Source: an uncultured Flavobacteriales bacterium (GTDB lineage Bacteria > Bacteroidota > Bacteroidia > Flavobacteriales_E > Vicingaceae). From it: a DNA stretch of 49,100 nt. How positions within the stretch are numbered: the stretch's first letter is position 1; the number at the start of each line of letters is the position of its first letter. Positions 2,561 to 37,510 of this stretch are shown here, in pieces. Where the stretch lies: NCBI GenBank assembly GCA_913056345.1, contig CAJXMH010000023.1, positions 1 to 49,100 of the forward strand, in the 5' to 3' direction. The notes below the pieces were generated by a model. That model was given only the letters and a program-made list of their open reading frames with translations, had not been told where the DNA came from and ran no database searches. The translations under genes and the position numbers were made by a program.

Positions 2561-3397
2561 TTAAGGATTACAAAAGTCGCAATAGGTCGGATCTTCTTCG
2601 GTTTTTCCCCTTGGATCTTTTCTTTCTTCCTTAAAGTCACAATTTTCACAGGCCCATATTTCACTTTTAATGCTTCTAGTCGGATTTCCACACAAAGCAC
2701 ATGGTAAACCACTTTTCTTTTCTTTAACCCAAAAGCCGGGCTGGGTGCAATTGGGACAGCAAGACTTTAACTTTTCAATCAATAAGTCAGTTGTTTTAGC
2801 AATTACTTTCATGCGACTGGGATTAAATATAGCTCGCATGTCAGTTTCAACTCTCACTGTTTCACTGATCGACCTTAATTCCTCAAACTCACTAAGCAAT
2901 TTAATTTCTGATCCAATTCCTTTTACCACTTTGAGCTGTTTGCCATCATTGGCTTTTAAGATCAAAGCATGCGATGGAAAGTTGACTTTTTCAGCAAACG
3001 TTAGCAGACTCGAGCTGTTTTTAACTTCCTCAGAAGCATAATTGGTTTCCATGCTTAATGAAGAAGCTGAAATTTCTAATCCATTCTTTTGATCGATCAA
3101 GACTAAAAACTCTTCATCGCAGGCTATAAAAGGAATATTGGGGTGCGGTCCAAAGGAGCCTTCACTAGCAATAACAAGCTGTTGGTTGCTTTTTGCTAAG
3201 GCAGCAAGTGCTTTTGCTTTTGCTGTTTCAAGCGGAGACTTTTTTCTTTCTACTTCTCCACTAAAAGTCCCAAATTGATCTGTGTCAAAATCCTTCGGCA
3301 CGATCGTCTTTATTCCAAAAGCTTGTTTGAAAGCAGGGGCAATTACTTTCTCTTTTTGGTGCTTAGTGGCAATTAAGAGCTCTCTGTTCTCGAACAT
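2561..3397 (-). CDS. DUF6671-like protein with C-terminal double zinc ribbon
   Basis: A 278-residue protein of unknown function. The N-terminal half (LLIATKHQKEKVIAPAF, DQFGTFSGEVER, VIASEGSFGPHPNIPF) carries the signature motifs I associate with DUF6671. The C-terminal 70 residues contain four CxxC pairs (CPNC, CALC, CENC, CDFC), enough ligands for two zinc ribbons. The GTFSGE and ASEGSFG pieces loosely recall the YjjX/ITPase group of nucleotide-cleaning enzymes; this is only a resemblance. Its ATG overlaps the tsaC stop in a TAATG junction, so the two are probably translationally coupled. Confidence 0.6.
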   Translation of the reverse strand: MFENRELLIATKHQKEKVIAPAFKQAFGIKTIVPKDFDTDQFGTFSGEVERKKSPLETAKAKALAALAKSNQQLVIASEGSFGPHPNIPFIACDEEFLVLIDQKNGLEISASSLSMETNYASEEVKNSSSLLTFAEKVNFPSHALILKANDGKQLKVVKGIGSEIKLLSEFEELRSISETVRVETDMRAIFNPSRMKVIAKTTDLLIEKLKSCCPNCTQPGFWVKEKKSGLPCALCGNPTRSIKSEIWACENCDFKEERKDPRGKTEEDPTYCDFCNP

Positions 3398-36055: not shown

Positions 36056-37435
36056 TTAATTGAAATAGCTTATTTGAGCTTTAAAATCTTTAGTGTTTAA
36101 ATAAGAATAGATCAAATTGGCCATATCTTGATCATCATAAGCAGCGGTCAATTGACCTTTTATCTGCTCTATTGACAAATCAGCTTTGTCAGCTTCCAAT
36201 TCACCATGACCTTTGTATCTTCCATTTTCTACTAAGAGCACAGCATATTTATTTGATTCTGGAATCGCTTCTTTAAGTAAAAAGTTGGCTTGTTTTTTTA
36301 CTTTTTCAAGCAATGCTTTTCTCACTCGTTTGTTGTAGGAGTTTGCTTCTTCCAGACCACTGCAGGCGCCCTTGCAATCAATTTCTTCAAAATAGGAGCA
36401 AGGTCCTGAGCCAAGTGGTTGCAGACCCGATAGCCTAGGGCAAAGTTCAAAATCAAAAACCAATTGTTTTAGAAAGGAATGGGCATCTTGTTGATTCCTA
36501 AATGAATGAATGGGTTTATCGTTCTTGCCGCAACGACCAATGCTTAATCGTTCAAATCCATTACGATCTAGATATTGATATAAGCCATAATTCAAACTAA
36601 AGCGTTTGAGCGAACGATTATGTCTTGGCCAGTGCTTTTTGATTTCAGCAGCCTCGGATAGGTCAAGCATCAATTTGTTGGGAACAAGTTCATAATCTAC
36701 ACCATAGATGTGTTTTACGAAGTAATACTTACTCTTTGTATTTGAGTTACCTGAAAAGTGGCTATGAACCCTCTTTTTGATATTCTTAGCTTGACCAATG
36801 TAAACGATTGTTCCTTTTTCGTCTTTAAAATAGTATAAGCCTTGCTCTTCAGGTAAAGCTTGAAAGTCTGCTTTGGGTAGATTAGGTGGCAGCAATGCCT
36901 CAAGTGATTGAGGATTAAGGGAGTGTTTTATTACCTCATTTTGATCTAAACGAAGCAATTTGGCAAACAGTATTGCTGTAGCTTTAGCATCACCCATTGC
37001 ACGGTGCCGGTTAGATAATGGAATGTTTTCAGAGGCGCATAATTTGCCAAGGCTGTATGAGAATTTTCCTGGCAGAATTTTCCTACTTAGCCTAACTGTG
37101 CATAACTTCTTTCTCCTAAAAGATCTGCCTAAACGCTGAAACGATTCCCTGAGGAAGCCGTAGTCAAAATTCACGTTATGTGCTACAAAAATGCAATCTT
37201 TTGTCAGCTCATCAATGCGATCAGCTACTTCAGCAAAGCTTGGAGCAGCTTCAACCATTTGATTCGTAATGCCTGTAAGTCGACTGATGTTAGTTGGGAT
37301 CTCCCGACCTGGATTGATCAGGCTTTGGTACTCAGTAATCTCCTTCTCTCCATCATGAATGATAACAGCTACCTCTGTTATTCTGCTTCTAACAGCGCTG
37401 CCACCTGTAGTTTCTAGATCGACTATAGCGTACAT
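36056..37435 (-). CDS. DnaQ-like exonuclease fused to a GIY-YIG (Cho/UvrC-like) nuclease
   Basis: A 459-residue fusion. Residues 1-165 are a DEDDh 3'-5' exonuclease: D6/E8 in VDLETTGG, D91 in HNVNFDYGFL, H144/D149 in HRAMGDA. Residues 197-275 are a GIY-YIG nuclease: GLYYFKDEKGTIVYIGQAKN, KKRVHSHF, and E261 in LSEAAEIKKHWPRHN. Beyond this come four cysteines, C332, C346, C354 and C358, in the pattern C-x13-C-x7-C-x3-C. This matches the Fe-S cluster ligands of UvrC (C-x11-C-x7-C-x3-C in E. coli). It probably incises or trims damaged DNA, like Cho. ATG start, four bases after TAACTTTG. Confidence 0.9.
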   Translation of the reverse strand: MYAIVDLETTGGSAVRSRITEVAVIIHDGEKEITEYQSLINPGREIPTNISRLTGITNQMVEAAPSFAEVADRIDELTKDCIFVAHNVNFDYGFLRESFQRLGRSFRRKKLCTVRLSRKILPGKFSYSLGKLCASENIPLSNRHRAMGDAKATAILFAKLLRLDQNEVIKHSLNPQSLEALLPPNLPKADFQALPEEQGLYYFKDEKGTIVYIGQAKNIKKRVHSHFSGNSNTKSKYYFVKHIYGVDYELVPNKLMLDLSEAAEIKKHWPRHNRSLKRFSLNYGLYQYLDRNGFERLSIGRCGKNDKPIHSFRNQQDAHSFLKQLVFDFELCPRLSGLQPLGSGPCSYFEEIDCKGACSGLEEANSYNKRVRKALLEKVKKQANFLLKEAIPESNKYAVLLVENGRYKGHGELEADKADLSIEQIKGQLTAAYDDQDMANLIYSYLNTKDFKAQISYFN

Positions 37436-37439
37436 ATTT

Positions 37440-37447
37440 CAAAGTTA
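37440..37447 (-). promoter_or_regulatory. -7 element (TAACTTTG) four bases before the DnaQ/GIY-YIG gene
   Basis: An exact TAnnTTTG match, then AAAT and ATG. It lies only nine bases from the terminator hairpin of pckA, so termination and initiation are packed together. Confidence 0.6.
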
Positions 37448-37450
37448 CGC

Positions 37451-37486
37451 ATGAAAAAAGCCATGAGCTTTTATGCTCATGGCTTT
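37451..37486 (-). terminator. Intrinsic terminator of pckA
   Basis: A 12-bp perfect stem (37457-37468 with 37475-37486, AAAGCCATGAGC on the plus strand) with a 6-base loop. On the minus strand the stem ends in a run of six T. It follows the pckA stop by about 25 bases. Confidence 0.9.
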
Positions 37487-37510
37487 CTCTTTAATATTTA
37501 TCAATTATTC

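Follow-up and report, generated by a model that had tools for sequence, protein, structure and literature searches.

Proteins in which an exonuclease is joined to a GIY-YIG endonuclease have been described before. In the parts available to us, the classification of Dunin-Horkawicz (2006; PMC1564403) lists in its Table 1 a subfamily 'Cho+Exo' ('CTD: C4-ChoCTD, NTD: ExoIII'), separates it from 'Cho-like+Exo', which has a UvrB-binding C-terminal domain (CTD), and assigns Cho and its fusions to nucleotide excision repair. It also relates a proposal from 2002 for the mycobacterial fusion, according to which the exonuclease starts at the cut made by GIY-YIG and degrades the DNA through the lesion; the same proposal is cited in the accessible portions of PMC1839093 and PMC518961. 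The fusion, the C4 region and the incise-then-digest idea are all already in print, and Bacteroidota, Cytophaga and Flavobacterium included, are not named in the main text of PMC1564403. For UvrC itself, the available text of PMC9426483 and PMC8837605 places a [4Fe4S] cluster near the GIY-YIG domain or downstream of it. A study from 2021 on S24-type SOS repressors and their motifs in Bacteroidetes (PMC8565304) presents, as far as its accessible part goes, a GIY-YIG domain-containing exonuclease as a putative target of both SOS motifs, and a Bacteroidetes system that pairs a Y-family polymerase with DnaE2 is described in the available part of PMC6511836.

The gene analysed here lies in the window, by which we mean the whole stretch of 49,100 nucleotides under analysis, and its features are collected in Table 1. 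The preliminary description had read it as a DEDDh exonuclease fused in front of a GIY-YIG domain with the key residues of both intact, and the searches bear this out: Pfam places RNase_T at residues 4-157 (5.6e-35) and GIY-YIG at residues 199-237 (3.8e-6), phmmer aligns the structure of the UvrC N-terminus (1yd6) to residues 190-277, and the five exonuclease residues and the six of GIY-YIG are without exception present and conserved in homologues. The fold searches with Foldseek and VIA-align listed exonuclease folds alone (DnaQ, PolC and DinG). Two NCBIfam models match under their curated cut-offs, namely the uvrC model TIGR00194 at residues 190-374 (7.4e-22), with all four loop cysteines inside, and the Cho model at residues 188-395 (1.5e-15). 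The uvrC match stops at residue 374 and there is no UvrBb match, so the UvrB-binding, EndoV-like and HhH domains of UvrC are absent from the protein, and the second UvrC nuclease half is indeed missing, as had been claimed.

Table 1. Features of the fusion gene and its immediate upstream region (window coordinates)
Feature	Position	Strand	Basis
Exo-GIY-YIG-C4-ChoCTD gene, 459 aa	36056..37435	minus	intact ORF, ATG at 37435, stop 36056-36058
DEDDh 3'-5' exonuclease domain, residues 4-157 (D6, E8, D91, H144, D149)	36965..37426	minus	Pfam RNase_T; Foldseek and VIA-align folds; conservation
GIY-YIG endonuclease domain, residues 190-277 (Y201, Y212, R222, H226, E261, N273)	36605..36868	minus	Pfam; phmmer to 1yd6; conservation
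Four-cysteine loop: C332 (36440-36442), C346 (36398-36400), C354 (36374-36376), C358 (36362-36364)	36362..36442	minus	register and loop Cys counts
Cho-type C-terminal domain, residues 360-459	36059..36358	minus	hhalign to Cho CTD
TAACTTTG, immediately 5' of the ATG	37440..37447	minus	resembles Bacteroidetes -7 element

The view of the protein as a UvrC derivative survives in part only: the four-cysteine motif is of the UvrC type, but the C-terminal domain matches that of Cho and not the UvrB-binding domain of UvrC. When a CTD profile of short Bacteroidota fusions was compared by hhalign, it gave 82.7% to the Cho CTD (E 9.5e-6, one modest profile score), 2.4% to the UvrB-binding region of UvrC and 0.3% to an unrelated control. 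Long fusions of the same phylum (about 540-570 aa) behave in the reverse way, with 97.5% to UvrBb and 0.1% to Cho. The notion of a truncated UvrC was rejected, since the CTD of the window protein is Cho-type. Because this CTD is of the Cho type and unlike that of UvrC, the window protein belongs to the Cho+Exo subfamily described in 2006, of which it is an ordinary member in a Bacteroidota version: it has the DEDDh domain with its five residues, the GIY-YIG domain with Y/Y/R/H/E/N, the C4 region after GIY-YIG and the Cho-type CTD.

A check was made on eight named proteins from plasmid records (five from Pseudomonadota, one from Persicobacter, two actinobacterial). The five Pseudomonadota fusions are Cho-type (two from Cupriavidus, one each from Caballeronia, Acidithiobacillus and Legionella israelensis), and they have the catalytic residues and four cysteines, as does the fusion of Persicobacter, itself a member of Bacteroidota; the actinobacterial ones have four cysteines in Nonomuraea and three in Tsukamurella. 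The plasmid collection also holds Klebsiella records with genes annotated as excinuclease Cho. The phylum of the window protein also has longer DEDDh-GIY-YIG-C4 fusions that end in a UvrB-binding domain, as the actinobacterial ones do (loci L236-L248). The genome of the window encodes a stand-alone DEDDh exonuclease as well (L344:8578-9147, contig C6), 49% identical to the N-terminal domain of the fusion, and genes of that type are found in many relatives irrespective of the fusion being present. Elsewhere in the window, a 278-aa ORF (2561-3397, minus strand) has at its C-terminal end several CxxC pairs that resemble zinc ribbons.

The cysteines of the window protein are at positions 81, 112, 133, 302, 332, 346, 354 and 358, and the last four are spaced exactly as C332-x13-C346-x7-C354-x3-C358. 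In direct alignments these four are in register with C154, C166, C174 and C178 of E. coli UvrC, which we take to be its cluster ligands, with C166, C181, C189 and C193 of E. coli Cho, and with the four cysteines of the UvrC encoded by the same genome. A [4Fe4S] cluster was reportedly described in UvrC by Silva in 2020. The UvrC-type motif put forward in the preliminary description is right and no product of chance: among the 157 homologues aligned first, 136, 135, 134 and 131 rows carry cysteine at the four positions; a further alignment of 44 sequences was chosen among four-cysteine proteins, and conservation within it is not counted as evidence. The AlphaFold model of the window protein has a pLDDT of 77-91 at residues 331-360 and of 77-84 at residues 341-360, compared with 56-63 at residues 341-360 in the model of a cysteine-free relative (L110). 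Judging from these models, the metal site seems to order the loop.

We infer that the metal is most likely a [4Fe-4S] cluster as in UvrC, although the sequence alone fits zinc too. A structural zinc held by the four cysteines is in our opinion rather improbable. C4 loops bind either metal, an all-or-none site that seems to order its loop would be expected of zinc as well, and the solved UvrC structures all miss the loop: in our PDB search, UvrC proteins matched E. coli UvrC at residues 10-102 or 377-610, with no solved structure of the loop, and no solved C4 loop of an exonuclease/GIY-YIG fusion was found either. However, the register is that of UvrC, the very protein for which the available text of PMC9426483 and PMC8837605 reports [4Fe4S].

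The new element here is the existence of cysteine-free relatives with both active sites intact. From 239 fusion ORFs we obtained 232 distinct sequences and counted 230 of them after two degenerate ones (L138, L140) were dropped; proteins were labelled by the spacing pattern and then by reading of the rows that failed it. In this sample, which consists of the best 80 loci of one scan and of sampled genomes and whose percentages are not population frequencies, 192 of the 230 fusions have all four ligands (C4), 33 have none (C0) and five have one ligand moved. The total of loop cysteines is at least four in 197/230, zero or one in 33/230 and two or three in none, the five moved-ligand rows still reaching at least four by means of a cysteine elsewhere in the loop, such as one two residues beyond C332 or one at the C336 position. 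The cysteines are thus all-or-none, and such counts are the pattern that a four-ligand metal site would predict. The preliminary expectation that the cysteines are conserved in orthologues holds for most of the family and fails in some lineages, where they were lost wholesale. In 33/33 C0 proteins none of the five exonuclease and six GIY-YIG residues is lost; among the C4 rows exonuclease residues are missing in 2/192 and a GIY-YIG residue is changed in a few.

Some readings of the cysteines were rejected. The extra cysteine C336 of many homologues (Ser in the window protein) is not a plausible ligand, as it is kept in 32/33 C0 proteins and is often missing from C4 ones (present in 129/192, absent in 63/192). 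Nor was the Fe-S site lost from whole lineages, because UvrC retains its four cysteines in all 30 genomes tested, 19 with a C0 fusion and 11 with only C4 or moved-ligand fusions. As for the number of losses, a FastTree tree of all 230 proteins with the loop columns excluded requires at least six changes between C4 and C0, moved-ligand rows uncounted, and an IQ-TREE tree of a subset of 65 requires five. Forcing a single C0 clade on the latter is 143.7 lnL units worse (p-AU 0.00019), and one single loss of the cysteines is hence rejected. C4 is taken as the ancestral state because Cho, UvrC and the Pseudomonadota fusions have four cysteines. Since the 33 C0 proteins retain their catalytic residues and the tree test rejects one common loss, the cluster would be dispensable for whatever conserves the active sites; the comparison of sequences argues against a need for the metal site in catalysis and suggests that it was lost as a unit more than once.

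In the genus Flavobacterium, to which the sampled genomes were assigned by their grouping with named records in the tree, the two forms often occur together. Out of 23 sampled genomes, 15 have one C0 and one C4 copy, eight have C4 only and none has C0 alone. A survey of 150 Flavobacterium genomes gave a match in 142, and a C0-type copy, called by at least 65% identity to the L110 C0 protein over nearly full length and read by eye, in 51/150. The cysteine states of both copies were read in 30 of those 51 genomes, a chosen check set: the C0-type copy has one loop cysteine in 29 and two in one, the C4-type copy has four in 30/30, the exonuclease residues are intact in 60/60 copies, and the C336 position is Cys in 30/30 C0 and Thr in 30/30 C4 copies. 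In the tree the Flavobacterium C0 copies group with C0 proteins of Sphingobacteriaceae and other families, apart from the Flavobacterium C4 copies, and this grouping across families suggests that they were horizontally acquired. In one genome (locus L212, contig C5) a Flavobacterium-type cysteine-free copy is split into two frames and an intact C4 copy is found elsewhere, an apparent decay of the metal-free isozyme. In the open-access papers searched we found none on GIY-YIG/exonuclease fusions in Flavobacterium and, by title among the matches listed, none on paralogues of the UvrC/Cho cluster.

The two copies also differ in their neighbours. The Flavobacterium C0 gene often lies within about 170 bp behind a DnaE-type gene on the same strand, which a DinB-type gene precedes; an S24/HTH repressor gene is nearby, and genes for exonuclease III (xth) and an AlkB-like dioxygenase often follow. 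Over 33 C0 loci we counted DinB at 16 (two of these matches being weak, with 24 and 31% identity), DnaE at 12, S24 at 14, AlkB-like at 10 and exonuclease III at seven, compared with DinB at two, DnaE at three and S24 at four of 87 C4 loci, although the flanks inspected extend to at most about 4 kb per side at some loci and about 9.5 kb at others, so that the two sets of rates are not strictly comparable. The Flavobacterium C4 copies have a separate and steady neighbourhood, which includes ion-channel-like and MiaA-like genes (named by eye). One would argue that membership in the polymerase cassette causes the loss of the cysteines. This idea was rejected: six C4 genes (L064, L066, L075, L083, L090, L104) adjoin S24, DinB or DnaE genes, and around the nine C0 loci that fall outside the large clade (L309-L317), flanks of roughly 5-10 kb contain no gene for DinB, DnaE or S24.

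Our scan for SOS boxes is in agreement with PMC8565304. An exact CTAA-N5-TTAG box stands within 300 bp upstream of 36/178 C4 genes and 2/29 C0 genes, against expectations of 1.4 and 0.2, respectively, by resampling of the sequence. GGA-N5-TCC shows no overall enrichment (7/178 C4 genes vs 6.3 expected), and two Aquimarina genes have two such sites each. The window copy itself sits between smpB and pckA on the same strand with no repair neighbour, and neither CTAA-N5-TTAG nor GGA-N5-TTC occurs in its promoter region (37436-37510). A scan of its own genome for SOS boxes gave 80 pattern matches vs 47 in the reversed control, none at the window gene among the matches listed. That genome does have two S24 repressor homologues and, elsewhere, a dinB-dnaE pair that the fusion gene does not adjoin; contig C30 carries an S24/HTH repressor homologue (L343:5018-5860) and the pair (L343:15343-19642), an SOS-type set without the fusion gene. 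The window copy is thus a C4 enzyme for which we see no sign of SOS control; as it lacks both an SOS box and a repair gene beside it, it may be expressed constitutively. The 75-bp gap before the gene contains, behind pckA, a terminator-like hairpin (37459-37484) and its T-run. Within the next 25 bp comes TAACTTTG, which we liken to the Bacteroidetes -7 element with the presumed consensus TAnnTTTG; close relatives have similar TTTG or TTTTGA elements directly before the ATG. Since this element stands right before the start codon, the mRNA is possibly leaderless.

Taken together, we consider it likely that the window protein is a Bacteroidota repair enzyme of the Cho+Exo kind, which makes a 3' nick, digests in the 3'-to-5' direction and carries an accessory metal loop. 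We infer a substrate and an order of reaction in which the GIY-YIG domain would nick the DNA once, 3' of a lesion, and the exonuclease domain of that polypeptide would then degrade the lesion-bearing strand 3'-to-5' from the nick. The digestion would stand in for the second (5') incision of UvrC, and the gap left behind would be primed for filling by a polymerase. The link with DinB- and DnaE-type polymerases points to translesion polymerases for this step. The four cysteines would hold a metal centre that stabilises the loop situated between nuclease and CTD and assists the binding of DNA or of a partner, an accessory that could be discarded without loss of catalytic residues. Incision followed by trimming in a single polypeptide, as the preliminary description had it, is plausible and dates back to the proposal of 2002; the observation made there is confirmed and its interpretation is partly supported.

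It could also be that the enzyme has no part in excision repair and processes recombination or replication intermediates instead, or trims ends for translesion polymerases. The operons with DinB- and DnaE-type polymerases, exonuclease III and the AlkB-like dioxygenase would fit such a role, as would the single cysteine-free copy of F. micromati next to ligD and ku (L097) and a C4 gene next to ku (L053). However, the GIY-YIG domain and the CTD are Cho-type, the single cysteine-free copy of F. lotistagni adjoins uvrA (L115), and the available text of PMC1564403 places Cho and the fusions in nucleotide excision repair; we find this role unlikely. Redox control of the enzyme, which the preliminary description had proposed, gains no support, and a cluster serving as redox switch or DNA charge-transport relay for incision is very doubtful: the UvrC cluster is reported in the accessible part of PMC9426483 to be O2-sensitive and linked to DNA charge transport, but 33/230 relatives without any of the four cysteines keep every catalytic residue, with a single loss rejected, and the UvrC cysteines are intact in the 19 genomes with a C0 fusion, with the proviso that a control role could differ between the two proteins.

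To return to the reading of the enzyme as a nick-and-digest nuclease with an accessory metal loop, its relatives make the purpose of the loop testable. The fusion family is a natural experiment, in which proteins with the same domains and active sites either have or lack the four cysteines, often within a single cell, and a natural C4/C0 pair would separate the part of the metal (folding, DNA affinity, damage sensing or redox) from that of the nucleases. We tentatively propose, as a possibility that we hold with less than even confidence, that the metal site of the UvrC/Cho type is a module that can be removed and that Flavobacterium runs two isozymes, a C4 copy among housekeeping neighbours and a metal-free copy, probably horizontally acquired, in an SOS-type polymerase operon (DinB - DnaE - nuclease - exonuclease III - AlkB-like). 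If this is true, the cell would rely on the metal-free form under DNA damage and oxidants, conditions in which an enzyme with an Fe-S cluster becomes unreliable. FumC, which replaces the Fe-S fumarases of E. coli, would be an analogous case.

Compared with the known systems, the window protein resembles the target in the Bacteroidetes SOS regulon (PMC8565304) in protein description and phylum, and many of its homologues have an SOS box upstream; the window copy differs in having no box, and the cysteines are not mentioned in the available part of that paper. Its residues 2-376 align with the actinobacterial Cho-like+Exo proteins (NCBIfam NF005906 and relatives) over the exonuclease, GIY-YIG and C4 regions, but those proteins have a UvrB-binding CTD according to the accessible part of PMC1564403, and the window protein has none and scores 257.6 bits against a cut-off of 495. 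With UvrC it shares the GIY-YIG catalytic residues and the four-cysteine loop; it lacks the UvrB-binding, EndoV-like nuclease and HhH domains, and a separate UvrC is encoded in the same genome. E. coli Cho (b1741) has a GIY-YIG domain, a C4 loop of near-identical spacing and a related CTD, but no exonuclease domain. The closest described system remains Cho+Exo: although the window copy comes from Bacteroidota and its CTD is divergent (the 82.7% by hhalign given above), the order of the domains, exonuclease, GIY-YIG, C4 and Cho-CTD, is the same.
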